The translations under genes were made by a program, and so were the position numbers. Below are positions 35,333 through 58,360 of a DNA stretch of 64,000 bases, in pieces. Numbering within the stretch: the first letter of the stretch is position 1; the number at the start of each line of letters is the position of its first letter. Source of the DNA: Saccharopolyspora sp. NFXS83 (GTDB lineage Bacteria; Actinomycetota; Actinomycetes; Mycobacteriales; Pseudonocardiaceae). The stretch covers positions 186,001-250,000 of the forward strand of contig NZ_JAPFGB010000003.1 of NCBI RefSeq assembly GCF_026241095.1, given 5' to 3'. A model generated the notes under the pieces. That model was not told the DNA's origin, did no database searches, and saw only the letters and a program-made list of their open reading frames with translations.

Positions 35333-35476
35333 TTCAGCGGCTTCCTCGCTGCGGGATCTTCTTCCCGAGTGGCTCCGCCACGAGGGAAAAGCCGTCCTCG
35401 TGAGGAAGCCGCTGGGAACCCGCCGGTGGTCGGCCCGCTCAAGCTGGTCACTGCTCATCGGCTTCGCCGCTGACAG
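35333..35476 (+). repeat. Structured intergenic repeat, copy A
   Basis: Outer stem CAGCGGCTTCCTCGC (35335-35349) with its partner ending at 35414 (one G-U), an apical hairpin (TTCCC...GTGGC/GCCAC...GGGAA), the conserved GGAACCCGCCGG block, and a terminal hairpin near CGGCTTCGCCGCTGACA. Lies between the convergent reductase and P450 genes. Related copies at 38685, 48984 and 58214. Confidence 0.8.
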
Positions 35477-35572
35477 GAGAAGAACGCTGCTCCCTGGAAC
35501 GACCGGTTCGAAGACAGGCTTCCAGCGGCTTCGCCGCTGACAAGATCGACAGGTGCGGGCAGAACGGCGTGA

Positions 35573-36808
35573 TCACCAGTCGACGAGGAGGCTGTGGACG
35601 CCGTAGTTGACGGCTGCGGAGCGCAGCGGTACTCGTTCCGGGGCGACGGCCAGGCGCAGTCCGGGAAATCGTTCGAGCAGGCCGGAGAATCCCGCCCGCA
35701 GCTCCACTCGGGCGAGCTGCGCGCCCAGGCAGTGGTGGATGCCGTGGCCGAAGGCCAGGTGCCCGGCGCCTGATCGGCCGAGGTCGAGCCGGTCGGGTTC
35801 CGGGAACTGCTCGGGGTCCCGGTTGGCCGTGGACAACGACAACGTGACCAGCTCGCCCCGGCGGATGGTCTGGCCGTGCAGTTCGACGTCCTCCAGCGCC
35901 GTGCGGGTGGTGCCGAACTGGTTGATCGTCAGGTAGCGCAGCAGCTCCTCCACCGCCGTGCCGATGGCCGACGGGTTCTCGCACAGCCAGGCGAGCTCTG
36001 CGGGGTGGGCCAGCAGGGCGTAGGTGCCCAGCGCGAGCATGTTGGCCGTCGTGTCGTCCCCTCCGGTGATCAGCATCGCGCTCATCGTCGCGATCTCCTC
36101 GTCGGAGAGCTCCCCGTCGGCCACCAGCGCGCTCGTCAGGTCCGTGCCGGGGGTGGTGTGCTTCGCGCGCACGTGCTCGCGCAGTTCCGCCAGCAGCCGC
36201 TCCCACGCCTGCCCGGCCTCCTCGGGGTCGGCGTCGAGCCGGAGAAGCGCTTCGGTGGTCGCCCGCACCGACGACCGTTCCAGCGGCATCCCGAGCAGGT
36301 CGCGGATCACGTGGAAGGCGATGGGGCTGGCGAAGGACTCGACGAGGTCGACGGGCCCGCCCGCGCTCTCCATCACGTCGAGCCGTTCGGTGACCGCCCG
36401 TTCCACCAGCGGCTCCATCTCCCGCACCCGGCGGAGCGTGAACGCCGACACGAGCTTGCGCCGGTACCAGGTGTGTTCCGGCGGGCCCATGACGCTGAAC
36501 AGGCCGGGCGCGGCGGTGGCGTCCTGGGGTTGCTGGTCGGCCGGCCCGCGCAGCAGGTCGATCCGGGCGCTGAAGCGCTGATCGGTGAGCACTTCGCGGA
36601 CCAGGGCGTAGCCGGTCACCAGCCATCCCGGCGCGTCGCCGGGGTGGTACATCCGGGTCAGCGGCCGGTGCGGGAGCAGGTCGCGCAACCCGTCGTGCGG
36701 GGCGAACGGGGTGCTGCGGGTGGTGGGGTGCTCGACGAGCGCGGCGGTGCTGCTCCCGCGTTCGTCGGGGGACGGCCGTTCGGCGCGGTGGAGGGACACA
36801 GTCGCCAT
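35573..36808 (-). CDS. Cytochrome P450, possible PTM tailoring enzyme
   Basis: 411 residues, typical of soluble actinomycete P450s. Heme-binding motif 'FGHGIHHCLGAQLARVEL' near residues 345-362 (Cys354 region), I-helix 'ITGGDDTTANM' (GGDDT rather than AGxDT), ExxR in 'EELLRYLT'. Needs ferredoxin partners not seen here. It converges on the PTM operon; PTM clusters often carry a P450 (IkaD/PtdD type) that hydroxylates or epoxidises the macrolactam, so involvement is likely but unproven. ATG at 36808. Confidence 0.87.
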   Translation of the reverse strand: MATVSLHRAERPSPDERGSSTAALVEHPTTRSTPFAPHDGLRDLLPHRPLTRMYHPGDAPGWLVTGYALVREVLTDQRFSARIDLLRGPADQQPQDATAAPGLFSVMGPPEHTWYRRKLVSAFTLRRVREMEPLVERAVTERLDVMESAGGPVDLVESFASPIAFHVIRDLLGMPLERSSVRATTEALLRLDADPEEAGQAWERLLAELREHVRAKHTTPGTDLTSALVADGELSDEEIATMSAMLITGGDDTTANMLALGTYALLAHPAELAWLCENPSAIGTAVEELLRYLTINQFGTTRTALEDVELHGQTIRRGELVTLSLSTANRDPEQFPEPDRLDLGRSGAGHLAFGHGIHHCLGAQLARVELRAGFSGLLERFPGLRLAVAPERVPLRSAAVNYGVHSLLVDW

Positions 36809-37211
36809 GCTCCGGGCCGATCGGCGCCGTGTCAGGAGGAATCACTCGGCCGTGCAGCGGTGTCGCCCGGTCGCCGGAGCGGAATCCCGTTCGGCACAAG
36901 GGGATTCCGCCCATCGGGCAGCACGATCACCGCAACGCGCGGGTGCTCGCGCCGCGCAGCGGGCCGTGGTGCGCTCGGTGACCTCCCCGATGTTCGGCTC
37001 GGCGCCGCGCCAGAGTGGTGGCGGTCGACGGTTTCCCGCGAGCACCGCGGTTCGGCGCCCGGTACGTGGCGGCGTTGCTCGACCTGCACCCGCGCGGGCG
37101 GGCGCAGCCGACCCTGGACGGCCTCACCGCTGGTACCCCGGAAGCGCTGTTCTGGCACCGCGATCGGTGATCCGGTGCTGAACCGGGACTGCGCCACCGC
37201 GCGGACCCGGT
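36809..37211. other. Intergenic stretch upstream of the P450
   Basis: Roughly 400 bp between the P450 start and the end of rhaB. Open frames in it lack start signals and resemble no family. It must include the P450 promoter; I recognise no operator. Confidence 0.5.
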
Positions 37212-38627
37212 TCAGCGGGACGGCCGGTACCGGCGCAGTTCGCACGTGCGGCGCACGAGGTCCCGCATCGATTCCAGGGTGCCGGTGACCATGCCCGCCG
37301 TTCTGGCCTGCACGAGCACGTTGCCGAGGGCGGTGGCCTCCACCGGCCCGGCGATCACCGTGCGCCCGGTGCGTGCGGCGGTCAGCTCGCACAGCAGCTC
37401 GTTGCGCGCCCCGCCGCCCACGACGTGCACGGTGGACAGCGCGCGGCCGGTGAGCCGCTCCAGCAGATCGATGGACTCGGCGTACGCGGTGGCGAGGCTT
37501 TCCAGGATGCAGCGCACGAATTCGGCGCGGGTCCCCGGAACCGGCCGGTCGTGCTCGGTCAGCCAGGCCGCGATGCGGGCGGGCATGTCGCCGGGCGGGA
37601 GGAACCTGGCGTCGTTCGGGTCGAACTCGGCGACCCGGCCGGGTGGGACCGCGGCGGCCTCCGCCAGCAGCGATTCCAGGTCGACCGCCGGGCCGTCTCG
37701 GCTCCACCGCTCGACGGATTCGGTGAGCAGCCACAAGCCCATCACGTTGTGCAGGTAGCGGATCCTGCCGTCGACGCCGAGCTCGTTGGTGAAGTTCGCC
37801 GCCCGGCCCCGCGCGGAGAGCACCGGCCGCTCCAGCTCCGCGCCGACCAGCGACCAGGTGCCGCAGGAGATGTAGGCGAACGACTCGTCCCGCGCGGGCA
37901 CGGCCACCACCGCCGACGCGGTGTCGTGCGAACCCACCGCCGTGACCGCCAACCGGTCCGCGCCCAGCTCGTCGGCCACATCTGGGGTGACCTCGCCGAT
38001 TCGCTCTCCGGGTGAGACGAGCCGTGGCAGCAGGTCCCTGCTGATACCGAGCCGGTCCATCAGCGGCTCCGACCAGTTCGACGTCCGCGCGTCGAGCAGA
38101 CCCGTCGTGGAGGCGTTGGTGCGTTCCGCCACCTGCTCGCCGGTGAGCCAGTAGGCCAGCAGGTCCGGGATGAGCAGCATCCGCTCGGCCAGTTGCAACA
38201 GTCCTGACTCGCGCTCGGCGGCGAGCTGGAAGGTGGTGTTGAACGGCAGGTGCTGCAAGCCGTTCACCTCGTAGAGCTCGGCGGGGCCCACCATGTCGTG
38301 CACGGTGGGCACCGCCGCCGCGTTGCGGTCGTCGCGGTAGTGGTGCGGCATCCCGAGCATCCGGCCGCCGCGCAGCAGCGCGTAGTCCACCGCCCACGAA
38401 TCGATGCCGACGCTCGTGAGATCCGCTTCCCGCGCCGCCTGCCGCACCCCGTCGCACACCTCGCGGTACAGCTCCACCACGTTCCAGTGCAACGCTCCCC
38501 GGATGCGCACGGGCCGGTTCGGGAACCGGGCGACCGCGCGCATCCGAAGCTCGTCCGGCCCGACGTGACCGAGCATCACCCGCCCGCTGGTGGCGCCCAG
38601 GTCGACCGCGGCGACCGCCTCGCCCAT
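37212..38627 (-). CDS. rhaB: L-rhamnulokinase
   Basis: 471 residues of the FGGY kinase family with rhamnulokinase marks: 'VDLGATSGRVMLG' phosphate site at the N-terminus, 'VGIDSWAVDYALL', 'GMPHHYRDDRN', 'FNTTFQLAAE' and the C-terminal 'VHVVGGGARNELLCELTAA'. Phosphorylates L-rhamnulose at C1. ATG at 38627 with GAGGGGAC upstream. Downstream of the rhamnose operon on the same strand, separated by a structured repeat (38685-38830), so it may have its own promoter. Confidence 0.92.
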   Translation of the reverse strand: MGEAVAAVDLGATSGRVMLGHVGPDELRMRAVARFPNRPVRIRGALHWNVVELYREVCDGVRQAAREADLTSVGIDSWAVDYALLRGGRMLGMPHHYRDDRNAAAVPTVHDMVGPAELYEVNGLQHLPFNTTFQLAAERESGLLQLAERMLLIPDLLAYWLTGEQVAERTNASTTGLLDARTSNWSEPLMDRLGISRDLLPRLVSPGERIGEVTPDVADELGADRLAVTAVGSHDTASAVVAVPARDESFAYISCGTWSLVGAELERPVLSARGRAANFTNELGVDGRIRYLHNVMGLWLLTESVERWSRDGPAVDLESLLAEAAAVPPGRVAEFDPNDARFLPPGDMPARIAAWLTEHDRPVPGTRAEFVRCILESLATAYAESIDLLERLTGRALSTVHVVGGGARNELLCELTAARTGRTVIAGPVEATALGNVLVQARTAGMVTGTLESMRDLVRRTCELRRYRPSR

Positions 38628-38684
38628 GTCCCCTCCTCAAATCCGCCGACGAACTCCCAGCTGCACGAACGGATGCCCCAGCAT

Positions 38685-38830
38685 TGTCGGCGGCGAAGCC
38701 GCTGAGCAGTGACCACCAGAGCAAGCCGGCCACCCAGCGGGTTCTCAGCTGTCCTCTCGCGAGGACGGCACTTCCGTGCGCGGCGGGGCCGCTCGCGAGA
38801 GTGATCCCGCAGCGAGAGGACAGCTGAGGT
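38685..38830 (-). repeat. Structured intergenic repeat, copy B (divergent stem sequence)
   Basis: Opposite orientation to the other copies. Its outer stem arms (38746-38760 and 38812-38826, CAGCTGTCCTCTCGC and complement) differ at five positions from the other copies, each change compensated on the partner arm. The flanking GAACCCGC and GGTCACTGCTCAGCGGC blocks are conserved. Lies between rhaB and the aldolase fusion gene. Confidence 0.8.
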
Positions 38831-38866
38831 TCGGCTACCCGACCCGCACCGCAACAAGACCGGGCG

Positions 38867-40942
38867 TCACCGCAGGAACGCCGCGGCCACGCCCGCGTCG
38901 ACCGGGACGTGCAGGCCCGTGGTGTGGCTCAGGTCCCCGCCGAGCAGCGCGAACACGGCGTTCGCGACGTGCTCCGGCAGCACCTCCCGCTTGAGCAGGG
39001 TGCGCTGGGCGTAGAACTCGCCGAGGTCCTCCTCCGCGACCCCGTAGACCTTCGCCCGCTGCGCGCCCCAGCCGCCGGCGAAGATGCCGCTGCCGCGGAC
39101 CACGCCGTCCGGGTTGACGCCGTTGACGCGGATCGCGTGCCCGCCGAGTTCGGCGGCCAGCAGCCGCACCTGGTGCGCCTGATCGGCCTTCGTGGCGGAG
39201 TAGGCGACGTTGTTCGGCCCGGCGAACACGCCGTTCTTCGACACGACGTAGACGATGTCGCCGCCGAGTCCCTGCTCGATGAGCACCTTCGCCGCCGCCT
39301 TGCTGACCAGGAACGAACCCTTCGCCATCACGTCGTGCTGGAGGTCCCAGTCGGCGGCGGTCGTCTCCAGCAGCGGTTTCGACAGCGACAGCCCGGCGTT
39401 GTTGACCACCACGTCGAGCCCGCCGAACGCCAGCACCGCGGCGTCGACCGCGGCGGCCACGGCGTCCTCATCGGTGACGTCCGCGCCCACGCCCACCGCG
39501 ACGTCCGGTGACCCGATCTCGGCGGCGGCTTCCCGGGCTTTGGCCTCGTCGAGGTCGGCGAGCACCACGGTGGCCCCGTCGCTCGCGAGGCGGGCGGCGG
39601 TGGCCTTGCCGATGCCGGAGCCGGCCCCGGTGACCAGTGCGACCTTCGTCGCCAGCGGCTTGGGGGCCGGGCGGCGCCGCAGCTTCGCCTCTTCCAACGC
39701 CCAGTACTCGATGCGGAACTTCTCCCGCTCGTCGATGGGGGAGTAGGTGGACAGCGCCTCCGCGCCGCGCATCACGTTGATCGCGTTGACGTAGAACTCC
39801 CCGGCGACGCGGGCGGTCTGCTTGTCGCCGCCGTAGCTGAACATGCCGACGCCGGGGATCAGCACGATCGCCGGATCCGCGCCGCGCATCGGCGGCGAGT
39901 CGGGCGTGGCGTGGCGCCGGTAGTAGGCCGCGTAGTCCTCGCGGTACTGCGCGTGCAGTTCCTCGAGCCGCCGCACGGATTCTTCGACCGGGGCGGTCGC
40001 GGGCAGGTCGAGCACCAGCGGCTTCACCTTGGTGCGCAGGAAGTGGTCGGGGCAGCTCGTACCGAGTTCCGCCAGCCGGGGATGTTCCGCGCGCGCCAGG
40101 AAGTCCAGCACTTCCGGTCCGTCGGTGAAGTGCCCGACCTGGCGCTTGTCGGTGCTCGCGAGACCGCGCAGAACCGGCGCGAGCGCGGCGGCCTTGGCTC
40201 GCCGCTCCGGCTCGGGCAGCGCCGCGTAGCCGTCGAGGACCGCGCCGAACGGATCGGGGCGGCCGTGCTCGGCGATGTGCTCGGCGGCCGTGTCGATGAT
40301 CCACCGCGAGTTGCGCTCGCAGTCGTCGCTGCTCTCGCCCCACGCGGTGATGCCGTGCCCGCCGAGGACGGTGCCGATCGCCTCGGGGTGCGCCCGCTTG
40401 ATCTCGGCGATGTCCTGACCGAGCTGCCAGCCGGGTCGCCGCCACGGCACCCACACGACCTTCTCGCCGAAGATCTCCCGCGTCAACTCCGGGCCGTCGG
40501 CGGCGGTGGCGAGGGCGATCCCGCTGTCGGGATGCAGGTGGTCGACGTGGTCGGCCTCCACCAGCCCGTGCATCGCGGTGTCGATGGACGGCGCGGCGCC
40601 GCCCTTGCCGTGCAGCGCGTAGTCGAAGGCCGCGACCATCTCGTCCTCGCGGTCCACACCGGGGTACACCCCGGACAGCGCGCGCAACCGGTCGAGGCGG
40701 AGCACGGCCAGCCCGCGCTCGGTGAGCGTGCCCAGGTCACCACCGGAGCCCTTCACCCACATCAGCTCGACCGGCTCGCCGGTGACGGGGTCGGTGTCGT
40801 GGCCCTTGGCGGAGGTGTTGCCGCCCGCGTAGTTGGTGTTGCGCGGGTCGGCGCCCAGCCGGTTGCTCCGGGCGATCAGTCCTTCGACGGCGCTGGAATT
40901 CGCCATGGCGGCAGCGCTCTCCTCTCCTGCTCGGTAGGACAT
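38867..40942 (-). CDS. rhaEW: Bifunctional L-rhamnulose-1-phosphate aldolase / L-lactaldehyde dehydrogenase
   Basis: 691 residues, a fusion. N-terminal class II aldolase/adducin domain (about 10-420; zinc motif 'VDHLHPDSGIA', 'GHGITAWG') and C-terminal short-chain dehydrogenase (about 430-691; 'VALVTGAGSGIGKATAARL', active 'YSATK' near 580). The same fusion is known as RhaEW in other bacteria: the aldolase splits rhamnulose-1-phosphate to DHAP and L-lactaldehyde, the SDR oxidises lactaldehyde to L-lactate. ATG at 40942 overlaps the rhaI stop (TGATG); an internal ATG at 40905 has a stronger ribosome site and is an alternative. The lactate produced can feed LutABC at 17-20 kb. Confidence 0.9.
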   Translation of the reverse strand: MSYRAGEESAAAMANSSAVEGLIARSNRLGADPRNTNYAGGNTSAKGHDTDPVTGEPVELMWVKGSGGDLGTLTERGLAVLRLDRLRALSGVYPGVDREDEMVAAFDYALHGKGGAAPSIDTAMHGLVEADHVDHLHPDSGIALATAADGPELTREIFGEKVVWVPWRRPGWQLGQDIAEIKRAHPEAIGTVLGGHGITAWGESSDDCERNSRWIIDTAAEHIAEHGRPDPFGAVLDGYAALPEPERRAKAAALAPVLRGLASTDKRQVGHFTDGPEVLDFLARAEHPRLAELGTSCPDHFLRTKVKPLVLDLPATAPVEESVRRLEELHAQYREDYAAYYRRHATPDSPPMRGADPAIVLIPGVGMFSYGGDKQTARVAGEFYVNAINVMRGAEALSTYSPIDEREKFRIEYWALEEAKLRRRPAPKPLATKVALVTGAGSGIGKATAARLASDGATVVLADLDEAKAREAAAEIGSPDVAVGVGADVTDEDAVAAAVDAAVLAFGGLDVVVNNAGLSLSKPLLETTAADWDLQHDVMAKGSFLVSKAAAKVLIEQGLGGDIVYVVSKNGVFAGPNNVAYSATKADQAHQVRLLAAELGGHAIRVNGVNPDGVVRGSGIFAGGWGAQRAKVYGVAEEDLGEFYAQRTLLKREVLPEHVANAVFALLGGDLSHTTGLHVPVDAGVAAAFLR

Positions 40943-42114
40943 CAGGCTCCCCACCCGGCCTGCGCGCCGCCGACGCGCTGCTCGGCGAGGTAGCGGGCGT
41001 GGCCGGATTCGGCGTAGGCGCGCATCGGTTCCGCGGGCAGCCCGCGGGACGCGCGCCACTGCGCCAGCGCCGGTCGCACGTCGGTCTGGAAGGCGTCCAT
41101 CAGCACTTCGTTGGCGCCCAGCACGTCGTGGGAGTCCTGCGCCTTCGCGAGCGCCGCGCGGTCGACCAGCAGCGCCCGCGCGGTCATCTCCTGCACGTTG
41201 AGCACGGACCGGATCTGCGCGGGGATCTTCTCCTCCACGTTGTGGCACTGGTCGAGCATGAAGCGCACCGGCGAGCCTTCGTCGAGGCCGCCGCCCGCGA
41301 CGACCTCGTGCAGCACCCGGAAGAGCTGGAACGGGTCGGCCGCCCCGACGATCAGGTCGTCGTCGGCGTAGAAGCGCGAGTTGAAGTCGAACGAACCGAG
41401 CTTTCCCAGGCGCAGCAACTGCATCACGATGAACTCGATGTTGGTGCCCGGCGCGTGGTGCCCGGTGTCCAGGCAGGTGAACGCGCGGTCGCCGAGCGCG
41501 CTGACCTGGACGAACGACGTTCCCCAGTCGGGCACGTCGGTGTGGTAGAAGGCCGGTTCGAAGAACTTGTACTCCAGCACGAGCCGCTGGTGCTCGCCGA
41601 GCCGCTCGTAGATCTCGGCCAGCGACTCGGCCAGCCGGTCCTGCCGGGCGCGCAGCGAATCCTGGCCGGGGTAGTTGGTGCCGTCGGCGAGCCAGATCTT
41701 GAGATCGGTGGACCCGGTGGCGTGCATGATCTCGATGCACCGGAAGTGGTGGTCGACGGCCTTGCGCCGCACGGCCGCGTCGGAGTGGGTGAGGCTGCCG
41801 AACTTGTAGGCCTCGTCCTGGAACGTGTTCGAGTTGATCGTGCCCAGCTGAACTCCGAGCTCCTCGGCGTGCGCCTTGAGCGCGGTGAAGTCGTCGACCT
41901 GGTCCCACGGGATGTGCAGCGCCACGGCGGGCGCCAGGCCGGTGAGCTCGTGCACCTTGGCGGCATCGGCGATCTTCTCCTGCGGCGTGCGCGGCGTTCC
42001 CGGGGTGCCGAACACCTTGAACCGGGTTCCCGAGTTGCCGAACGCCCAGCTCGGCAGCTCGATGGCCTGGCGGGCGAGGGTGCCGGTGATCTCCTCGAAA
42101 CGAGGCGGGGTCAT
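40942..42114 (-). CDS. rhaI: L-rhamnose isomerase (RhaI type)
   Basis: 390 residues, xylose-isomerase-like TIM barrel. Metal and substrate residues appear in 'LEYKFFEPAFYHTDVPDWG', 'CLDTGHHAPGTN', and 'SFDFNSRFYADDD'. Matches the Pseudomonas stutzeri/actinobacterial RhaI group rather than E. coli RhaA. Converts L-rhamnose to L-rhamnulose. ATG at 42114 overlaps the rhaM stop; the ORF is open upstream but through rhaM. Confidence 0.9.
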   Translation of the reverse strand: MTPPRFEEITGTLARQAIELPSWAFGNSGTRFKVFGTPGTPRTPQEKIADAAKVHELTGLAPAVALHIPWDQVDDFTALKAHAEELGVQLGTINSNTFQDEAYKFGSLTHSDAAVRRKAVDHHFRCIEIMHATGSTDLKIWLADGTNYPGQDSLRARQDRLAESLAEIYERLGEHQRLVLEYKFFEPAFYHTDVPDWGTSFVQVSALGDRAFTCLDTGHHAPGTNIEFIVMQLLRLGKLGSFDFNSRFYADDDLIVGAADPFQLFRVLHEVVAGGGLDEGSPVRFMLDQCHNVEEKIPAQIRSVLNVQEMTARALLVDRAALAKAQDSHDVLGANEVLMDAFQTDVRPALAQWRASRGLPAEPMRAYAESGHARYLAEQRVGGAQAGWGA

Positions 42115-43783: not shown

Positions 43784-43840
43784 CGGTCCTCCTGTCCATC
43801 GGCTCTGATGTCGCAGGCTCCGGCGTCGAGCGCACGGAGT

Positions 43841-43856
43841 ATTGAAACGTTTCAAT
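43841..43856. promoter_or_regulatory. LacI-type operator of the rhamnose operon
   Basis: ATTGAAACGTTTCAAT, a perfect 16-bp palindrome with central CG, 58-73 bp upstream of the transporter start. Different from both other operator types in this window, so it is probably read by a third LacI protein outside it. Confidence 0.8.
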
Positions 43857-44686: not shown

Positions 44687-44708
44687 TCCGTCCCCGTTCC
44701 GCGGCGGG

Positions 44709-46615: not shown

Positions 46616-48040
46616 GTGGAGTTCGCAACGACCGAAGCGGTCGTCGGCATCGACGTGGGCAGCACCGAGATCAAAGTGCTCGTCACCGATCGGCGCGGCG
46701 GGACGTTGAGCCTCCGGCGCACGCCGACCGACTGGCGCCGCACCGCCGACGGGCACAGCGAACTGCCCGCCGAGCTGCTCCTGAGCAGGGTCCTGTCCAC
46801 GATGGCCGGTGCCGTGCAGGTGGCAGAGCGGTCCGCCCACGGCCTCCGCGTCGCGGCCGTCGCGATCACCGGGATGGCCGAGTCCGGGGTCCTGCTCGAT
46901 CACGGCGGCACCCCGCTGCACCCGATCATCGCGTGGTTCGACCAGCGCGGCGGAGCCGAACTCGCCGCTCTGCCCGGAGATCTGGCGCGCGAGTTCAGCG
47001 CGCACACGGGACTGCCGCTGAGCCCGCTGTGCTCGTTCGCGAAGCTGAACCGGCTCGTCGAGCAGGGCCTGTCCCCGCGACGAGCCGGGCGCTGGCTCAA
47101 CGTTCCCGAGTACGTCGCGCACGCGCTGGGCGGCGCGGCGGTCACCGAACCGTCCCTCGCCTCCCGGACCGGGCTGCTCGACCAGGCGACCCAGGCGCCG
47201 TGGACCCCGGCGCTGGAGCACCTGGGGCTGCCCGCCGCGGTGTTGCCGCCGCTCACCCCCGCCGGGACGCCGATCGGCAACGTCGACCACCCCGCGGTCC
47301 CGGAGCCGGTGCGCGGCGCGGTGCTCAGCGTCGCCGGGCACGACCACCCGGTCGCCTCGGTCGCCAGCGGTGTCTGGCACGGCGAGCACCTGTTCGACTC
47401 GTGCGGCACCTCCGAGGCGCTGCTGCGCGTCGCTTCCGCGCCGCTGCGCGACGACCAGCGCGCACGGCTCACCGGCGAAGGCATCGCGCAAGGGATGCAC
47501 GTCCTGCCGGGCCGCTGGATCCTGCTCGGCGGCACTCGCGGCGGCCTGCTGCTGGACCAGGTCCTCGCGCTGGTGGGCCGCAAGGAACAACCGGGCCGGG
47601 CGGAACTCGACGAGCAGTGGCTCAGCGCACCTCCCGAAGGCGGAGCCGTCCAGGTCAGCGGTGCGCACGCCCGCAGCGAGCACGTCGACGTGCGGCTCGG
47701 CGGGGACGACGCGACACCGCTGCGGGTGTGGTCGGCGGCGCTGTCGCACGCCATGGCGGAGACCGACGCCGTGATCGCGCTGATGGCCGCGGAAGCCGGG
47801 CCGCACGAGCACGTCACCGCCGCGGGCGGCTGGACCCGGATGGGCAGCTTCCGCGCCGCGAAGCAGCGCAGCCTCCCCGAAATCGCCTACTCGCGCATCG
47901 ACCAGCCCAGCGCCTACGGCGCAGCCATCTTCGCCGCCCGTGCCGCCGCGCACGCCGACGGCGAGACCGCGGTGTCCGCAGTGGACATCGCCCGTCATTT
48001 CACCGAGAACACCCTCGACACCATCGGAGCGCAACCATGA
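46616..48040 (+). CDS. FGGY-family carbohydrate kinase
   Basis: 474 residues. 'VVGIDVGSTEIKVLVTD' phosphate loop, 'AITGMAESGVLLD', 'PIIAWFDQRG' and the C-terminal 'VTAAGGWTRMGSF' (FGGY_C adenosine motif); 'AGHDHPVASVASG' and 'FDSCGTSEALL' in the middle. Substrate sugar not assignable; xylulokinase/fuculokinase-like COG1070. GTG at 46616 with AAGGAG upstream. First of a five-gene operon with overlapping ends. Confidence 0.85.
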   Translation: MEFATTEAVVGIDVGSTEIKVLVTDRRGGTLSLRRTPTDWRRTADGHSELPAELLLSRVLSTMAGAVQVAERSAHGLRVAAVAITGMAESGVLLDHGGTPLHPIIAWFDQRGGAELAALPGDLAREFSAHTGLPLSPLCSFAKLNRLVEQGLSPRRAGRWLNVPEYVAHALGGAAVTEPSLASRTGLLDQATQAPWTPALEHLGLPAAVLPPLTPAGTPIGNVDHPAVPEPVRGAVLSVAGHDHPVASVASGVWHGEHLFDSCGTSEALLRVASAPLRDDQRARLTGEGIAQGMHVLPGRWILLGGTRGGLLLDQVLALVGRKEQPGRAELDEQWLSAPPEGGAVQVSGAHARSEHVDVRLGGDDATPLRVWSAALSHAMAETDAVIALMAAEAGPHEHVTAAGGWTRMGSFRAAKQRSLPEIAYSRIDQPSAYGAAIFAARAAAHADGETAVSAVDIARHFTENTLDTIGAQP

Positions 48041-48939
48041 CCGCGGCCCTCGCCGACATCGCCCAGTCCGACGGCACCTTCGCCATCGTCGCGCTCGACC
48101 AGCGCAACACCTTGCGGCGCATGTTCACCGCCGCGAACCAGCCCATCGACGACGACCTGCTGCGCCGGTTCAAGGGGGACGTGGTCGGCGGGCTCTCGCC
48201 CAGCGCGAGCGGCCTGCTCGTCGACCCCGACTTCGGTGTTCCGGCCGCCGTCGAGGACGGCAACCTCGCACCCGGCGCCGGGCTCGCGGTCGCCGCCGAG
48301 CCGTCCGACCGCGGGAAGTTCGGCGACGAGCCGCTGACCCGCCGCGAGCCCGCGCAGAACGCCCGGTGGGTGCGCGACATGGGCGGGCACGCCGTGAAGT
48401 TCTTCGTCCAGCTGCGCGCGGACCGGGACCGCGAGCTCGGCGGCCGGGACGTCTCGGCGGAGGCGGTCGACGCAGCCGCGGAGGTCGTCGCGGACTGCCG
48501 CGCCGACGGCGTGCCCTCGGTGATCGAGAACCTGATCTACCCGCTGCCCGGTGAGGGCGAGCTGTCCCCGCAGGCCCGCGCCGACGCGATCATCGAGTCC
48601 GCCCGCGCGCTCGACGAGCTCAAGCCCGACCTGCTGAAGCTGGAGTACCCGGGTTCGGCCGAGGCGTGCCGCCGGCTCGCGGAGGTCGTCACCGTCCCGT
48701 GGGTCGTGCTCTCCGCCGGGGTCGGCTTCGACGAGTTCCAGGACGTGCTGCGGATCTCCTGCGACGAAGGCGGCGCCTCCGGCTTCATCGCCGGGCGCGC
48801 CTTCTGGAAGGACGCGGTGGCGCTGGACCAGCCCGACCGCCGCCCCTTCCTCGCCGACACGGCCCGCCGCAGGCTCGATCAGTGCGTGACGGCCATCCAG
48901 GGCCGCGCCACTCCCTGGACCTCGATCACCGCCGCCTGA
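48037..48939 (+). CDS. LacD/YihT-like class I aldolase
   Basis: 300 residues of the tagatose-1,6-bisphosphate aldolase family (COG3684): 'FAIVALDQRNTLRRMF', 'GLLVDPDFG', 'AVKFFVQLRAD', 'SVIENLIYPL', 'DLLKLEYPG' (probable Schiff-base lysine near 199) and 'VVLSAGVGFDEF', 'SGFIAGRAFWKD'. Splits a keto-sugar phosphate to two three-carbon pieces. ATG overlaps the kinase stop by four bases. Related enzymes act on tagatose-bisphosphate or sulfofructose-phosphate; no sulfosugar marker is seen. Confidence 0.82.
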   Translation: MTAALADIAQSDGTFAIVALDQRNTLRRMFTAANQPIDDDLLRRFKGDVVGGLSPSASGLLVDPDFGVPAAVEDGNLAPGAGLAVAAEPSDRGKFGDEPLTRREPAQNARWVRDMGGHAVKFFVQLRADRDRELGGRDVSAEAVDAAAEVVADCRADGVPSVIENLIYPLPGEGELSPQARADAIIESARALDELKPDLLKLEYPGSAEACRRLAEVVTVPWVVLSAGVGFDEFQDVLRISCDEGGASGFIAGRAFWKDAVALDQPDRRPFLADTARRRLDQCVTAIQGRATPWTSITAA

Positions 48940-48983
48940 CCGGGAAGCCGATGGACGGTCCGCGCAGCGGGTCGTTCAGCGCA

Positions 48984-49133
48984 ACCTCAGCGGTTTCCTC
49001 GCCGCCCCTTCGCCGCGATGTGGCGGAGCTGCCGGCACGGCGACATCGCCGCTCTCGCGAGGAAGCCGCTGAGAACCCGCCGGTCGTCGGCTTGCTCAAG
49101 CCGGTCACTGCGCAGCGGCTCCGCCGCTGGCAG
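48984..49133 (+). repeat. Structured intergenic repeat, copy C
   Basis: Stem arms CAGCGGTTTCCTCGC (48988-49002) and GCGAGGAAGCCGCTG (49057-49071), with one G-U pair; apical stem GCGATGT/ACATCGC; then GAACCCGCCGG and a closing CAGCGGCTCCGCCGCTG hairpin. Lies between the aldolase and sugar-porter genes, inside the operon. Confidence 0.8.
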
Positions 49134-49204
49134 GACGACGAACGACTCTGAAGATTCCGCACCGCTCTTTCCCGGCAGCGTCGCCGGAGAAATGAGGTTC
49201 GACC

Positions 49205-52169: not shown

Positions 52170-52173
52170 GGGG

Positions 52174-53535
52174 TTAGGAGAGCGGCCGGTTGCTCTGGCG
52201 TCGAACGCGGATGGCCAGCAGCGCTCCACTCGCATCCATGTGCACGTGTCCCTTCCACTCCCGTTCGGCGCTCGTCTTGTTGCGGTGCCAGGCCTTCAGC
52301 GCGGTCGGTACGCGTGCTTCGTGCTCGTCGAGCCGTCCAGCCGCCAGCAGGTCGTACTGATCGGCGAGGAGTGCGGAGTACACCTCGACCCGACGTCCCT
52401 TCAACCGGAACACCTGATCGGTGCCCACGAACGACATCCCGCCGAGGGTGATGCTGGCGTCACCCTGAGCTCCCGGTACCGAGTCGGCCCCGGTCGTTCC
52501 GAGGCGTTTGCGTTGGCGCTCCGTCAGGAGATCGCTCGCTGCCGCGCGGTCGCCTGCGAAGGTGAGCAGGGAAGCAGCGCTGGTTCGGACCAGGAGCCGG
52601 GACAACCATCCCCGGCGGTCTTCAGGAACAGCGAACCCCGGGCGCGAACTCTGCCGCCCATCAGCGTCGATGCAGGTGATCCATGGTGGGAGATTGAGGT
52701 CCTCGGCGGGCAGGGACACATCCGCAGCGGCGAGGACGCCGTTCCCCTCAGCAGCAAGCAGACGGGTCTCGATGTCGTTGCCGTGGCGCAGTCCCGTGGC
52801 CGTCATCAGTGCAGGAACAGGATTCCCGCGGAGATCTGATTCGCCGATCAGTATCGTGTGCACGCGCTGTTGGGACAGCACCAGCTGGCCGTGGAGGGAA
52901 TCGGGTCTGCTGTGGGAACCTCTGGTGTCGATTGCTACGAGCCGTGGGGGACTTCCGGGTTTGCGCCCGACGAGGAAGTAGTTCGGTCTCGTCGCCGTGG
53001 TACCCGCTGCGGGTTTTCCGCTTCTCACCCCGCAGAACGCCGTGAGCACGAGTTCGGCGTCAAGGGAGTCGAACCGGTAATCGGGGTACTGCTGTCGCAG
53101 GACGTGCTGGGCGGCGGCCAAGCCGAACGAAGTTCCGAGGTCTCGCGCCTGGACCGCTTTCCGGTGGTAGTTCAAATCATTGCCGTCCCCGCTCAGCCTC
53201 AGCCGGCCTCGTGAGGCTGCATCGAGTGACGTCACATAACGCAGGCAATCCCAGTGCTGTGCCAGCGCACGGGCGGAACCTTGTCCGGCGAGGGCGGTGG
53301 CGCGAGCGAAGGTGTGCAGTACCTGCCAGGGGGTGACCGACATGTGGTCTCCCGGGCGCACTCCCGGGACGGGAGTGACCTGCTTCGGGCGAGCATGCGG
53401 CTGTTGTCCGTTCTTGATTCGTCCGCGGTCGAGTTTCGCGGGGCGGGTGCGAACCCGGTCAGCCAGGGCTGAGGACGACTGGAACAGTACGTCCGATTCC
53501 TGGTTGAGGTTCTTCAGCGCGGCATGGATCTTCAC
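52174..53535 (-). CDS. Unrecognised protein with a possible degenerate nuclease motif
   Basis: 453 residues, no family I can name. Features: basic N-terminus, a helical block, then 'YPDYRFDSLDAELVLTAFCG' and 'RPNYFLVGRKPGSPPRLVAID-TRGSH' (about 195-222) followed by 'QLVLSQQRV', an arrangement reminiscent of PD-(D/E)xK folds where ExK would be DTR. No membrane helices or signal peptide. GTG at 53535 with GGAGGG upstream. GC is lower than in neighbours and it interrupts two sugar loci, converging on the lacI gene, so it may be acquired. Function unknown. Confidence 0.55.
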   Translation of the reverse strand: MKIHAALKNLNQESDVLFQSSSALADRVRTRPAKLDRGRIKNGQQPHARPKQVTPVPGVRPGDHMSVTPWQVLHTFARATALAGQGSARALAQHWDCLRYVTSLDAASRGRLRLSGDGNDLNYHRKAVQARDLGTSFGLAAAQHVLRQQYPDYRFDSLDAELVLTAFCGVRSGKPAAGTTATRPNYFLVGRKPGSPPRLVAIDTRGSHSRPDSLHGQLVLSQQRVHTILIGESDLRGNPVPALMTATGLRHGNDIETRLLAAEGNGVLAAADVSLPAEDLNLPPWITCIDADGRQSSRPGFAVPEDRRGWLSRLLVRTSAASLLTFAGDRAAASDLLTERQRKRLGTTGADSVPGAQGDASITLGGMSFVGTDQVFRLKGRRVEVYSALLADQYDLLAAGRLDEHEARVPTALKAWHRNKTSAEREWKGHVHMDASGALLAIRVRRQSNRPLS

Positions 53536-53743
53536 TCGCCCTCCACCGGTGCTTGATCGTCTCGGCGTTCTCAACTCACCACACGGATCGCGCCGCTGTC
53601 TGCCGCCTGTCGGCTGACGTTCGGAGCAGCGTTCTCGGCCGTTGTTCGTCGTCCGATCGGCGCAGGATTGCGGCTTTCAGCGGGTGGTCCAAGGGCTGTC
53701 GGTGGCGACGTGTGATCACAGATGGGCTGGTGGGGACAACGGA

Positions 53744-54592
53744 TCAGGCGGTCAGGTGGGGGAGGACGAGTTCTCGGTAGCGGGCGGTCATCGTTGTGAT
53801 CACTTCGTCGCCGGGGGCGGACCAGATGTCGGAGTTGAAGATCTCCACTTCGACGTCGCCGGTGTAGCCCGTGTCGGCTATCGCGCGGGTGATCGGGGTG
53901 AAGTCGATGACGCCGTCGCCCATCATGCCGCGGGACAGCAGGGCGTCGGCCGCGATGGGGAGGTTGAAGTCGCACACCTGGTAGGCGGCGATGCGGTTCT
54001 CGTGACCGGCGCGTGCGATGCCGTGGGCCAGGTTCGGGTCCCAGAAGACGTGGAAGGTGTCGACGACCACGGCCACCGCGTCCGGCGGGTGCGGTGCGGC
54101 CAGGTCCAGCGCTTGGTCCAGCGTGGAGAGCACCGCGCGGTCGGCCACGTACATCGGGTGCAGGGGTTCGAGCACCAGGCGCACGCCGTGCTCGCGGGCG
54201 AACGGAGCGAGTTCGGCGAGCCGGTCGGCCACTCGGGCGCGCGCTCCGGCGAGGTTACGATCGCCGTTCGGCAGACCGCCCACGACCAGGATCAACGCGT
54301 CCGTGTTCAGCGCGGCGGCTTCGACGATCGCCGCCTGGTTGTCCGCCAGCGCCGCTCGCACCCCCGCCGGATCGGCGGCGGTGAGGAATCCGCCCCGGCA
54401 CAGGCTGGAGACCCGCAGTCCCGCGTCGCGCACGGTCTTCGCCGCCGCCTCCAACCCCGCCTCGGCGACCCGGTCGCGCCACAGCCCGACCGCGGGCAGT
54501 CCGGCCCGCGCCGCGCCGTCGATCGCTTCGCGCAGCGTCCACCGCTTCGTGGTCGCCGTGTTCAGCGACAGCCTCGCCAGATCGCCGGTCAT
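53744..54592 (-). CDS. Sugar phosphate isomerase/epimerase (xylose-isomerase-like TIM barrel)
   Basis: 282 residues. TIM-barrel AP-endonuclease-2 family: 'AGLPAVGLWRDRV', 'LEPLHPMYVADRA' (metal glutamate), 'VVDTFHVFWDPN' (Asp/His), 'YQVCDFNLP' and 'GDVEVEIFNSDIW'. Substrate unknown, a keto-sugar or inosose is likely. ATG overlaps the DUF993 stop. Third gene in a coupled Gfo-DUF993-isomerase operon. Confidence 0.82.
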   Translation of the reverse strand: MTGDLARLSLNTATTKRWTLREAIDGAARAGLPAVGLWRDRVAEAGLEAAAKTVRDAGLRVSSLCRGGFLTAADPAGVRAALADNQAAIVEAAALNTDALILVVGGLPNGDRNLAGARARVADRLAELAPFAREHGVRLVLEPLHPMYVADRAVLSTLDQALDLAAPHPPDAVAVVVDTFHVFWDPNLAHGIARAGHENRIAAYQVCDFNLPIAADALLSRGMMGDGVIDFTPITRAIADTGYTGDVEVEIFNSDIWSAPGDEVITTMTARYRELVLPHLTA

Positions 54593-55764
54593 GTCCGCAC
54601 TCCGTTCACCGCGAGGAACTGCCGCATCCGGTGGGCCGCCAGGCCGGGATCGAGCAGCAGGCCCGCGCGGTCGGCCGACCGGAGCACCTCGGCGAGGTGG
54701 GGGACCGACCGGCCGGCGTGCAGACCACCGGCCATGGCGAAGCCGGGTTGGTGGCCGTTGAGCCACGACAGGAACGCGATCCCGGTCTTGTAGTGGAACG
54801 TCGGCGCCTCGAACAGGAGTCGTCCCAACGGTTCCGTGCTGTCCAGAATGGACTTCGCGGTCCCCGGGTCGTCGCGGTCGAGGGCCTGGATCGCGGCGGA
54901 GGCGGCCGGGTAGATGGCCGCGAACACGCCCAGCAGCGCGTCCGAATGGTCGGTGCCTTCGCCCACGATCAGCTCGGGGTAGTTGAAGTCGTCGCCGGTG
55001 TAGAGGCGCACGCCCTCCGGCAGAGCGGGCCGGAGCGCGATCTCGTGCTCGGCGTCGAGCAGCGAGACCTTCACGCCGTCGACCTTCTCCGGCCGCGCCC
55101 GGATGATCTCCAGGAACGTCGTCGTCGCCACCGCCACGTCCTCGCTGCCCCAGTACCCGGTGAGCAGCGGGTCGAACATCGGCCCCAGCCAGTGCAGGAT
55201 CACCGGCGCGTCGGCCTCGTCGAGCAGCGCGCCGTACACCGCGGCGTAGTCCGCCGCGGAGCGCGCGATCGCGGCCAGCGCGCGCGAGGCCATCACGATG
55301 GCCGTGGCACCGCTGTCCGCCACGACCTCCAGCTGCTCGCGGTAGGCCGCCAGCACCGCGTCCAGGCCCGCTCGCCCGGACGGGAGCCCGTCGAGGTCGA
55401 GCTGGTCGGTTCCCGCCCCGGCGGCGATCGCGCCACCGGCGGCTCGCGCCTCGGCGGCCGAGCGCCGGATGAGCTCGGCCGCCTGCGTCCAGCCGACGCC
55501 CATGCCGCGCTGCGCGGTGTCCATCGCCTCGGCGACCCCGAGCCCGTAGGACCAGATGCGGTGCCGGTACGCCAGGGTCGACTCCCAATCGATGTCGGCG
55601 GGGGCTCCCGGCACGTTCTCGCCCAGCGCCCGGGGCACCACGTGCACCGCCGCGTAGGCGAGGCGAGTCCTGAGTGGACGGTCGGGTTCCGGCCAGCTCC
55701 GGGGCGGGGCGAGCACGTGCTCGACGAGGGTGCCGTCCGCGCGGGGCAGCAGCAGCGCGGTCAC
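54589..55764 (-). CDS. DUF993-family protein (DHDPS-like barrel)
   Basis: 391 residues. Recognised as DUF993 by 'WESTLAYRHRIWSYGLGVAEAMDTAQRGMG', split motif about residues 60-89, 'VILHWLGPMFDPLLTGYWGS', 'DGVKVSLLDAEHE' (lysine in Schiff-base position) and 'YTGDDFNYPELIVGEG'. The fold is related to dihydrodipicolinate synthase/KDG aldolase. Reaction unknown; an aldolase or hydrolase step in the pathway is likely. GTG start overlaps the oxidoreductase stop by four bases. Confidence 0.8.
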   Translation of the reverse strand: MTALLLPRADGTLVEHVLAPPRSWPEPDRPLRTRLAYAAVHVVPRALGENVPGAPADIDWESTLAYRHRIWSYGLGVAEAMDTAQRGMGVGWTQAAELIRRSAAEARAAGGAIAAGAGTDQLDLDGLPSGRAGLDAVLAAYREQLEVVADSGATAIVMASRALAAIARSAADYAAVYGALLDEADAPVILHWLGPMFDPLLTGYWGSEDVAVATTTFLEIIRARPEKVDGVKVSLLDAEHEIALRPALPEGVRLYTGDDFNYPELIVGEGTDHSDALLGVFAAIYPAASAAIQALDRDDPGTAKSILDSTEPLGRLLFEAPTFHYKTGIAFLSWLNGHQPGFAMAGGLHAGRSVPHLAEVLRSADRAGLLLDPGLAAHRMRQFLAVNGVRT

Positions 55765-56912
55765 GGCGCCACCTCGCCCAGCTCGACGCGGCGTCCCTCG
55801 CGGGAGGACGTGAGCCCCGCCTCGGCGAGCCGCAGCCCGCGCACTCCCGCCAGGAAGTCGTAGGGGTGGTCGCCGTCGTCGTGCAGGAAGCGCACGAACT
55901 GCTCCCACTGCGCTTTGAAACCGTTGTCGAACTCCCCGTTGTCCGGCACGGGCGACCACTGCTCCCGGAACGGGGTGCGCTCCACCAGGTCGGGGTTCCA
56001 CACCGGTTTCGGGGTCGCGGCGCGGTGCTGCGCGCGGCACTGGTGCAACCCGGCGACGGCACTTCCGTGCGTGCCGTCCACGTGGAACTCCACCAGCTCG
56101 TCGCGGTGCACGCGGGTCGTCCACGAGGAGTTGAGCTGCGCGATGATCCCGCCGTCGAGCTCGAAGATGCCGTAGGCGGCGTCGTCGGCGGTGGCAGGGT
56201 AGGCGTCGCCGCTCTCGTCCCAGCGTTGCGGGATGTGCGTGACGACGCGCGCGGTGACCGCCTCGACCCGGCCGAACAGGTTCTCCAGCACGTAGTTCCA
56301 GTGCGGGAACATGTCGGTGGTGATGCCGCCGCCGTCCTCCTTGCGGTAGTTCCAGCTCGGGCGCTGCGCCGGTTGGAGGTCGCCTTCGAAGACCCAGTAG
56401 CCGAATTCGCCGCGGACCGACAGGACGCGGCCGAAGAAGCCGCTCTCCACCAAGCGCCGCAGCTTCAACAGGCCCGGAAGGTAGAGCTTGTCGTGCACCA
56501 CACCGGCCCGCACGCCCGCGTCGCTCGCCGCGCGGGCCAGCCGCAGCGCGCCCTCGACGTCGTCGGCGATCGGCTTCTCGGTGTAGATGTGCTTGCCCGC
56601 GGCGATAGCGCTGGTGATCGCGGGCTCCCGCACGCTGGTCAGCTGCGCGTCGAAGTAGAGCGCGTCCTCGGCGTCGGACAGGGCGGTGTCGAGGTCGGTG
56701 GTCCACCGGTCCACGCCGTGCCGTTCGGCGAGTTCCGCTAGCTTCTCGGCGTTGCGGCCGACCAGGATCGGGTCGAGCCGCACCCGGCTGCCGTCGGAGA
56801 GCTCGACACCGCCCTGCTCCCGGATGGCCAGGACCGACCGGACCAGGTGCTGGCGGTGTCCCATCCTGCCGGTGACGCCGTTCATGATGACGCCCAGCCT
56901 TTGCTCCGTCAT
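55761..56912 (-). CDS. Gfo/Idh/MocA-family NAD(P)-dependent oxidoreductase
   Basis: 383 residues. N-terminal Rossmann domain is unusual ('LGVIMNGVTGRMGHRQHL' in place of GxGxxG), then the family motif 'YTEKPIADDVEGALRL' (EKP) near 107 and a C-terminal Gfo-like domain ('GGGITTDMFPHWNYVLENLFG', with GxxxDxxxH catalytic pattern). Oxidises a sugar or polyol hydroxyl. ATG at 56912. First gene of the operon; LacI operator at 56928-56942 lies directly upstream. Confidence 0.85.
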   Translation of the reverse strand: MTEQRLGVIMNGVTGRMGHRQHLVRSVLAIREQGGVELSDGSRVRLDPILVGRNAEKLAELAERHGVDRWTTDLDTALSDAEDALYFDAQLTSVREPAITSAIAAGKHIYTEKPIADDVEGALRLARAASDAGVRAGVVHDKLYLPGLLKLRRLVESGFFGRVLSVRGEFGYWVFEGDLQPAQRPSWNYRKEDGGGITTDMFPHWNYVLENLFGRVEAVTARVVTHIPQRWDESGDAYPATADDAAYGIFELDGGIIAQLNSSWTTRVHRDELVEFHVDGTHGSAVAGLHQCRAQHRAATPKPVWNPDLVERTPFREQWSPVPDNGEFDNGFKAQWEQFVRFLHDDGDHPYDFLAGVRGLRLAEAGLTSSREGRRVELGEVAP

Positions 56913-56927
56913 GCGGTACCGCCTTTC

Positions 56928-56942
56928 TGGAAAGCGCTTACC
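56928..56942. promoter_or_regulatory. LacI-type operator of the Gfo/DUF993 operon
   Basis: TGGAAAGCGCTTACC, 16-30 bp upstream of the oxidoreductase start. Reverse complement matches the site at 16986-17001 (GGTAAGCGCTTTCCA). Confidence 0.8.
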
Positions 56943-57112
56943 GAAACCGTAGGCGGAAGTCTGTTCGCGAGGCAAGGTGCCACGGACGGCGATTCCCGGC
57001 GCGACGCCATCGTGGAAAGGCGCTCAGAACGGGACTTCGATCTGAGCCCCGCCGGCGGCGAAGCCGCTGAGGTTCCGCCGCCCGCCCCACTGCGCGGATC
57101 GGCCCGAACGGC

Positions 57113-58129
57113 TCAACGCGGGGGAGTGCTCTCCCGGACCACGACCTCGCCGCGCACCTTGCGGCGGCGGGGTTTGCCGTCGGCTTCGTTGAGCACCAGG
57201 TCCAGCGCCATGCCGCCCATCTCGGTCAGCGGCAGCCGGACCGTGGTCAGCCCCGGCGTGACGTCGCGCAGCGTCGAGATGTCGTCGAAGCCCGCGACCG
57301 CGAGATCACCCGGCACGTCCACGCCGCGCTCCCGGCAGGCCGCCATCGCGCCCAGCGCCATCAGGTCGTTGATCGCGAAGGCGCAGTCGACCTCCGGGTG
57401 CTCGTCCAGCAGCCGGTGCATCGCCCGGAACCCGCCGGCGCGGGTGAACTCCTCGGCCAGGCAGACCGGTTCTCCCTCGGCGGATTTCCGCCAGCCCGCG
57501 GCGAAACCGTCGCGGCGATCGCGCGAGACCAGCAGGCGCTCCGGTCCGGTGAGGACGGCGGGACGCCGGTAGCCGAGATCGGCGAGCTCCACCGCCAGGT
57601 CGTGGGCGCCCCGGCGGTTGTCGACCACCACGGTGTCGACCGGCAACCGGGGTTCGCTGATCGCGGCCACCCGCCCGCCGGCCTCGGTGAACGGTTCCAC
57701 CTGGGCCGCGAGCTCCCGCAGGTGCGCGCGGTCGTTGGTGCGGCTGCCCGCCAGCACGATCGCGCGCCCGCGCTGGCGCCGCAGCGCCGCGAGCAGCTCC
57801 AGCTCGCGTTCGGGCCTGCCGCCGGTGCTGCACAGCATCACCAGCAGTCCGTGCTGCTCGGCGGCGTTGGCCAACCCGGCGGCGATGGTGGAGAAGTACG
57901 GGTCGGAGATGTCGTTGACCAGCAGCCCCACCAGGTCGGTGGAGCCCCGCGCCATCGACTGGGCCTGGGCGTTGGGCGTGTAGCCGAGCCGGGCGGCGGC
58001 TTGCAGCGTGCGCGCGTGCAGCTCGGCCCGGACGACGCGTTCGCTGCCGTTGAGCGCGCGGGACGCCGTCGCGAGCGACACGCCCGCCTCCTTGGCGACG
58101 TCGGTGAGGGTCGCTGCACGTGCCGGCAC
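57113..58129 (-). CDS. LacI-family regulator of the Gfo/DUF993/PL11 regulon
   Basis: 338 residues: HTH 'TLTDVAKEAGVSLATASRAL' (residues 7-26), hinge 'YTPNAQAQSMARGS', and sensor domain ('LVGLLVNDISDPYFSTIAAG', 'GDLAVAGFDDISTLRDVTPG'). GTG at 58129 with AAGGAG eight bases upstream. Lies between the Gfo operon and MHS transporter on the same strand; it is the natural candidate for the GGTAAGCGCTTTCC sites. A related palindrome, GGAATGCGTATTCC, sits before its own start (58148-58161). Confidence 0.87.
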   Translation of the reverse strand: MPARAATLTDVAKEAGVSLATASRALNGSERVVRAELHARTLQAAARLGYTPNAQAQSMARGSTDLVGLLVNDISDPYFSTIAAGLANAAEQHGLLVMLCSTGGRPERELELLAALRRQRGRAIVLAGSRTNDRAHLRELAAQVEPFTEAGGRVAAISEPRLPVDTVVVDNRRGAHDLAVELADLGYRRPAVLTGPERLLVSRDRRDGFAAGWRKSAEGEPVCLAEEFTRAGGFRAMHRLLDEHPEVDCAFAINDLMALGAMAACRERGVDVPGDLAVAGFDDISTLRDVTPGLTTVRLPLTEMGGMALDLVLNEADGKPRRRKVRGEVVVRESTPPR

Positions 58130-58147
58130 CGGGCGCTCCTTCCACGG

Positions 58148-58161
58148 GGAATGCGTATTCC
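58148..58161. promoter_or_regulatory. Possible autoregulatory operator of the LacI gene
   Basis: GGAATGCGTATTCC (5-bp arms, 4-base centre) 19 bp upstream of the start codon; similar to the site variant GGAATGCGCTTTCC at 59994-60007. Confidence 0.55.
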
Positions 58162-58213
58162 GAGGATAGCGCCCGCGTGGGATCGCAGAGAGCTGCGCGG
58201 GGGTCCGGGTCGG

Positions 58214-58360
58214 AACCCAGCGGCTTCCTCGCTGGGAGATCGCATTCGCGGGTGGCTCGGCCACGCGCACGATCGCCGCCCTCGCGGGGAAGCCGCTGAG
58301 AACCCGTCGCGGTGCCGGTGTCCCAGGTGGTCACCGCTCACCGGGTTCGCCGCCGACGAG
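58214..58360 (+). repeat. Structured intergenic repeat, copy D
   Basis: Arms CAGCGGCTTCCTCGC (58218-58232) and GCGGGGAAGCCGCTG (58284-58298) pair fully with one G-U; apical GTGGC-TCG-GCCAC hairpin; then GAACCCGTCG and a decayed 3' hairpin. Lies between the MHS transporter end and the LacI promoter. Confidence 0.78.

Follow-up and report, generated by a model that had tools for sequence, protein, structure and literature searches.

Repetitive extragenic palindromes (REPs) and bacterial interspersed mosaic elements (BIMEs) are high-copy extragenic palindromes of 20–40 bp that occupy tandem and convergent gaps near the 3′ ends of genes (excerpts of PMC3733652). GTAG- and CGTC-tagged REP families are distinguished, mobilisation by REP-associated tyrosine transposases (RAYTs) is hypothesised for the GTAG type, and the frequent G-T pairs in REP stems have been taken as a sign of RNA function (excerpts of PMC3733652). 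Enterobacterial repetitive intergenic consensus (ERIC) sequences are found in certain bacterial families only, at 30 to 711 copies, and those at Yersinia gene 3′ ends are reported to affect transcript levels (excerpts of PMC10969869). Here we describe a longer palindromic repeat from a 64,000-nucleotide stretch of the Saccharopolyspora sp. NFXS83 genome (contig NZ_JAPFGB010000003.1, positions 186,001 to 250,000; hereafter the window). We favour, at a probability of roughly 55%, the reading that it represents a family of non-autonomous REP/ERIC-like mobile palindromes that has been partly domesticated.

As with REPs, the repeat is present in high copy number, is extragenic and lies in tandem and convergent gaps near gene 3′ ends. 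Less clear-cut is the GTAG that sometimes stands immediately before its hairpin: in 49 of 157 copies GGAACC is preceded, with one base between, by a stop triplet (TAG where read), whereas many others have GTGG. It differs from REPs in its core, which is 153 bp long with an internal loop and a second hairpin as against 20–40 bp, in a host without a RAYT (Y1_Tnp) gene, and in an outer stem without G·U preference. ERICs, which are imperfect palindromes of 100-odd bp, belong to different bacteria, and the likeness drawn here is one of general description. Miniature inverted-repeat transposable elements (MITEs), for example the Correia elements, share with the repeat a short, non-coding, intergenic body and, in a few copies, terminal inverted repeats; however, terminal repeats and duplications are not general here, and it is the inner hairpin that is conserved rather than the ends. 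Integron attC sites also conserve structure above sequence and lie directly past stop codons, but the present copies are scattered singly over the genome, and the short repeats at the borders of the hairpin, GGAACC ... GAACC, have direct and not inverted orientation.

The first-pass annotation of the window, made from the letters alone, could attach no named family to the repeat. As far as Rfam goes this is correct, with no match to the repeat in the window at gathering score and none at E ≤ 1 when six loci, each from a different genome, were compared. No title or abstract opening among the open-access papers returned by our searches (supplements excluded) describes the family, and the main text of PMC3733652 makes no mention of Saccharopolyspora or Actinobacteria. 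The family seems to be unnamed and is apparently distinct from REP and ERIC.

Architecture, distribution and turnover of the repeat

The window copies were located by covariance-model search, and gene contexts in the host were taken from a simple codon-usage gene caller of our own. Four copies, A to D, lie where they had first been placed, all between called genes (Table 1), and for each of them none of 200 dinucleotide shuffles folds as well (z = -4.40, -4.50, -4.74 and -3.81). The whole element spans ~190–230 bp. Its core is made up of a head hairpin of ~80–90 nt, with a 16-bp outer stem, an asymmetric internal loop and a variable apical stem, followed by a linker and a short tail hairpin. 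Sequence is conserved in the internal loop and linker (35 aligned copies), the loop being kept as TGCGGGATC facing GCTGTCCTC in most family members. The outer stem is present in all four copies, at 16 bp rather than the 15 bp first given. Of the sequence blocks initially reported as common to the four, GAACCCGC is found unaltered in A, B and C but replaced by GAACCCGT in D, and the 3′ hairpin sequence is present with one mismatch in A, B and C and three in D. Taken alone, the octamer GAACCCGC is unremarkable in the window, with 9 occurrences against 5.7 expected; what is unusual is the combination. Extensions such as the one 3′ of copy A accompany a minority of other copies, at seven places beside the element when sought with one fuzzy motif.

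The initial description of a four-copy repeat greatly understated the family. The window holds a collapsed fifth copy, reduced to a leader, GGAACCTCAG and a single short hairpin, and the host genome (6.9 Mb; the window is on contig C23) has at least 150 matches to a covariance model, R1, built from an alignment of 25 of its own copies (A2). A DNA search of the same genome scored 40 candidates and listed 53 matches. Across 1.01 Mb on three host contigs, 42 places score 54 bits or more, of which C34 and C45 together have 35, the window four and the rest of C23 three. This extrapolates to ~290 in the host if evenly spread, but the spread is uneven, and the examined part of C23 preceding the window contains no match. 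Two forms share the same head, form 1 ending in the tail hairpin AGCGGCTTCGCCGCTG and form 2 in a different, repetitive tail. One host copy (C34:261351-261563; L181 1351-1563) has its head interior inverted relative to its arms, such that the model matches both strands. Among the matches listed, degenerate copies at L281 14971-15082 and L282 6095-6191, in which parts of the arms are recognisable, are common to the related genome G100.

A protein encoded in the window shares 88% identity with one from Saccharopolyspora endophytica, a member of the Pseudonocardiaceae. In the host's family, Pseudonocardiaceae, the element was detected at E ≤ 0.001 in 27 of 100 genomes and 14 of 46 genera, by a search whose filters lose weak matches; weak matches in G061 and G027 (loci L124 and L125) look chance-like on reading, leaving 25 genomes and 12 genera. 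A second covariance model, R2, from 35 copies of several genera (alignment A4), matches 18 of 249 genomes of the order at E ≤ 1e-5, all 18 of them in the host's family; 211 genomes without a match were not itemised by name. Plasmids and phages gave no match to copy B, and a pattern search of IMG/VR gave one match, at which no element could be read. As far as sampled, the repeat family is confined to one actinobacterial family.

Comparison of sister genomes reveals that copies come and go. Copy B is absent from G101, G102, G079 and G046, where homology picks up again at the stop codon, and its site in G100 holds a decayed relic. Among the matches listed, G101 has copy C intact and G100 has it in decayed form; neither genome carries copy D, each having a GC-rich hairpin past the stop codon at that site; a G100 copy (L239:3541-3693) is absent in the host and G101; and at locus A the host and G101 copies are oppositely oriented in one gap. 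At the site corresponding to host C34:109077, the element is found in G100 only, directly past an unchanged stop codon and flanked on both sides by the 8-bp TCTGATCA, the host and G101 sites being empty. G046 and G079, which have long blocks of 98–99.6% identity, differ in two copies: one by the whole element, together with the last codons of the gene, and the other by loss of the head hairpin between short repeats. Many form-2 copies of G100 show 84–92% identity to one host query over the same sharp span of ~226 bp, which points to recent amplification. These gains, empty sites and relics show that the family is or was mobile, with dispersal, gain and loss. A non-autonomous mobile element was one of the three options named by the first-pass annotation, beside a small RNA and an mRNA-processing element.

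Placement at gene ends

Contexts were counted for 46 host copies out of 81 covariance-model matches, with opposite-strand overlaps and matches below 27 bits excluded and one place (C34:261351/261401) counted twice. Eighteen copies are in convergent gaps, 16 tandem and sense, nine tandem and antisense, two divergent, and one, a weak 27-bit match, is inside a called gene; 45 of the 46 therefore lie outside genes. The 250 background gaps of 150 bp or longer comprise 37 convergent, 136 tandem and 77 divergent ones. Relative to these, copies are depleted in divergent gaps (p = 8e-5) and over-represented in convergent gaps (18/45 vs 37/250, p = 2e-4).

The distance to the stop codon is also constrained. 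The core motif has 31 matches within 250 nt past 613 stop codons, 22 of them at 20–39 nt and 15 at 30–39 nt, compared with same-strand controls of six upstream of genes and five inside them; on the opposite strand there are 14 upstream and 26 downstream, numbers that antisense and convergent copies would lead one to expect. For 22 of 30 host sense copies the core begins 25–55 nt past the stop, where 7.4 would be expected from uniform placement in the same gaps. The 22 best copies from 11 other genera, taken one per genome, include 21 in sense orientation, with a median distance of 40 nt (range 17–116). Over 157 copies, stop triplets concentrate 36–43 nt ahead of the core, and separate TAGs at 1 and 13 nt before it are part of the element. 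The leader that fills this distance is weakly conserved in sequence and near-constant in length. Antisense tandem copies, such as D, lack such spacing.

What could hold a repeat in these positions? A two-strand terminator or insulator without mobility of its own, whose copies spread by recombination, would suit the enrichment in convergent gaps and the sister genomes with a GC-rich hairpin at the copy D site, and if both strands were under selection, G·U and A·C mismatches would be removed alike. We nevertheless consider it quite improbable, since at host C34:109077 G100 gained the element while a GC-rich stretch like that of the host and G101 remained beside the other gene, and since the form-2 copies of G100 bear the marks of recent amplification described above. 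A more novel reading would make the repeat a family-wide mobile 3′-untranslated region (3′-UTR) module that sets itself ~40 nt past stops, defines 3′ ends, is repeatedly recruited, as at gatB, and provides the ends of several percent of genes; we regard this as unlikely.

Pairing in the hairpin and the gatB copy

The compensated stem changes first noticed among the window copies extend to the family at large. Copy B has five changes in the outer-stem arm, each matched in the partner arm, and a G-U pair is found in each of A, C and D, as had been reported. In the 25 host copies, 46 cells have both partners of a pair changed, compared with 11.0 after shuffling (0/500); across genera there are 198 such cells against 73.5, with a covariation score of 0.446 against 0.144 (0/500 each), by shuffles that do not preserve relatedness. 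When the partner is slid by 1–3 columns, pairing falls from 88% to 44–49%. The element is a real structured one with strong covariation, which upholds part of the original interpretation. Selection on structure, there taken as the simplest reading, is not the only one: block changes in the stem arms could also come from gene conversion or palindrome correction, and the excess of A·C over G·U mismatches in the outer stem argues against selection on the sense RNA alone.

Selection for pairing in the sense RNA should leave G·U as the tolerated mismatch in helices other than the small inner one. The outer stem instead has 52 A·C to 33 G·U on the sense strand in 93 distinct arm pairs (from 153 extracted, with duplicates and arms of fewer than 10 Watson-Crick pairs removed), and G·U and A·C number 20 and 43 in A4 minus the inner helix and 16 and 32 in A2, counts that include related copies and hence are not independent. 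With A·C exceeding G·U, sense-RNA pairing is not the obvious target. No G·U preference would be expected if the hairpin formed in DNA, if it worked on both strands or if palindromes were repaired by mutation. A hairpin kept as DNA, or active on both strands, fits the mismatch pattern better. This argument is limited to the other helices, because the inner helix keeps G·U in 32 of 35 sequences (32 G·T vs 2 A·C cells).

A structured RNA in the sense transcript, acting as a 3′-UTR regulator or in processing or stability, spread by duplication and kept by selection on RNA pairing, would be consistent with that inner helix, with the covariation across genera, with the conserved internal loop and linker, and with the fixed, mainly sense placement past stop codons, as well as with constraint on the gatB copy described below and its compensated changes (L303/L304 and in L307). 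The lack of preference for G·U over A·C tells against it, as do the nine of 46 copies that are antisense in tandem gaps and the decay or disappearance of copies between sister genomes, and we hold this explanation to be improbable.

The gatB copy belongs to a genus, g34, in which five sampled genomes have one to three matches each in the order-wide search; additional, partly partial DNA matches make it low-copy, not strictly single-copy. A copy 3′ of gatB is common to G095, G067, G324 and G267 (aligned), and G325 also matches there. Elsewhere the site holds ~20 bp between matching flanks (G033) or ~800 bp of other sequence (G319). Outside the outer stem, the pairs among loci L303, L304 and L305, of the three closest genomes, differ at 3/117, 5/117 and 3/117 positions, as against ~20% at gatB fourfold sites. 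Between L303 and L304, four outer-stem differences form two compensated pairs, and in L307 the outer stem is largely rewritten yet well paired. Such sequence conservation suggests that the gatB copy is in use in part of the genus.

The g34 copies also bear on whether selection is needed at all. Compensated changes could come from palindrome correction by template switching, or from gene conversion among hundreds of copies. In the high-copy genomes, outer stems differ blockwise between orthologous copies whose flanking genes are 93–97% identical, G·U intermediates are scarce, and the interior has been flipped within its arms at host C34:261351, all of which speak for such a process. However, compensation is still seen at gatB in low-copy g34 (L303/L304 and L307, though not L305), and most of the remaining gatB element is conserved in three g34 genomes. 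Correction could still operate within one copy despite g34, and we regard this account as a minority possibility, somewhat doubtful as the whole explanation.

Element ends, candidate enzymes and the window

If the family is a mobile palindrome, what moves it? One possibility is a classical MITE, derived by deletion from an insertion sequence, bounded by terminal inverted repeats and a target-site duplication of fixed length, and moved by the DDE transposase of that insertion sequence. Six of 126 copies, all in G046 and G079, do carry consensus terminal inverted repeats (GGAGTCCTTTCRGAATGAT plus a matching 3′ end), the two flanks of a given copy pair with each other slightly better than shuffled ones (-27.4 vs -25.95 kcal/mol; 50 copies, 0/200), and single direct repeats bound individual copies: the 8-bp TCTGATCA in G100, whose site is empty in the host and G101, the 9-bp CTAAGGAGT in G101 and the 7-bp TGAGGGG in G100. 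Inverted 7-, 8- and 9-mers number 69, 29 and 8, against 63.9, 22.1 and 7.1 by permutation. There is, however, no general duplication signal, no pair of strict-consensus inverted ends within 600 bp in host C34, C45 or the window, and no ISL3 transposase, the sole DDE family searched, in the host. A search of ~2.5 Mb from five genomes for split or autonomous versions, in which only headless tails were sought, indicated no coding relative; it returned 14 tails without heads, read as short or degenerate copies. A MITE origin seems to us a less probable course, if one with some cases in its favour.

Among the enzymes considered, Y1 is somewhat commoner in element-bearing genomes (8/27 vs 8/73, p = 0.03). 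The one Y1 flank read, at the G079 gene (C1:2447842, L157), has no element in its locus at E ≤ 0.01. ISL3 occurs in five of six genomes of the host genus (four above cut-off). Reverse transcriptase was rejected as a shared engine, being present in one of the six genus genomes, the host itself. There a lone reverse-transcriptase domain is encoded at C22:50962-51420 and is not found in the five others. Nor does the variable stem show any guide-like relation to its flanking sequence (22 vs 27.6 upstream and 72 vs 69.2 downstream; 151 copies).

Several of these results weigh against a REP/ERIC-like mobile palindrome. No mobilising gene was found among the families searched (Y1, ISL3 and reverse transcriptase): the host lacks Y1 transposases of RAYT type, as do genomes rich in the element (G013, G052 and G063, for example), and ISL3 is not in the host. 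Target-site duplications lack support overall: with a candidate stop available for 138 of the 156 copies tested, stop-centred 7-mers occur in eight copies against 6.6 permuted (175/500 as high); unrestricted direct 7-mers are in excess (79 vs 61, 0/200) and 8-mers are not (21 vs 20.9). Consensus terminal inverted repeats are confined to the six G046/G079 copies. At gatB, three outer-stem changes between L305 and L304 are uncompensated, and in two of its three pairs the L307 element as a whole has diverged roughly as far as fourfold sites have. To these are added the retained G·U of the inner helix and the relatedness of the copies in the mismatch counts.

We still prefer the mobile palindrome, partly domesticated, in which the hairpin would be recognised as DNA, either a folded single strand or a cruciform, by an insertion enzyme. 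This enzyme would insert copies right past stop codons, much as has been proposed for REP elements. Such copies may then be tolerated because the hairpin serves as the transcript 3′ end or leaves it unharmed, and a few, including the gatB copy of g34, may have become useful 3′-UTR structures in some species.

The features of the window are collected in Table 1. Copy A lies within a biosynthetic gene group. Positions 21599-36808 contain a 3077-aa hybrid polyketide synthase-nonribosomal peptide synthetase (KS, AT, DH, KR, C, A and TE domains) followed by amine-oxidase-like, alcohol dehydrogenase (ADH) and P450 genes, with copy A between the last two; we take the group to resemble a cluster of the tetramate-macrolactam type. 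The only Rfam match in the window is a cobalamin riboswitch at 5466-5598 (+), with 33.2 bits against a gathering score of 31.5, immediately 5′ of a FecCD-type transporter permease gene at 5638-6735 (+).

Table 1. Repeat copies and associated features in the window (positions count from its first letter).
Feature	Position	Strand	Score, context or basis
Copy A core (head hairpin, linker, tail hairpin)	35328..35480	+	Covariance model, 172.7 bits
Copy A context			Convergent gap: ADH-like gene 34177-35232 (+) / P450 gene 35573-36808 (-)
Copy A 3′ extension, second AGCGGCTTCGCCGCTG hairpin	35481..35545	+	Read by eye
Copy B core	38680..38833	-	152.6 bits; tandem gap, sense to upstream gene 38867-40954 (-)
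Copy B leader	38834..38866	-	From stop codon of gene 38867-40954 (-) to core
Copy C core	48981..49137	+	114.5 bits; tandem, sense; apical part diverged
Copy C context			DeoC-like aldolase gene on one side, sugar-transporter gene on the other
Copy C leader	48940..48980	+	Immediately past stop codon of gene 48037-48939
Copy D core	58212..58363	+	124.8 bits; antisense, between two (-) genes
Collapsed fifth mini-copy	~57020..57090	-	3′ of stop codon of gene 57113-58129 (-); limits approximate, read by eye

For annotation, there is a risk that hairpins of this kind are taken to be terminators or small RNAs. The close sister genomes make insertion next to stop codons testable, and the combination of high-copy genera with a low-copy genus provides a natural case in which selection on the fold can be separated from mutational palindrome repair. 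More broadly, the repeat adds an abundant, apparently undescribed gene-end family to the group of soil actinobacteria that includes the erythromycin producer.

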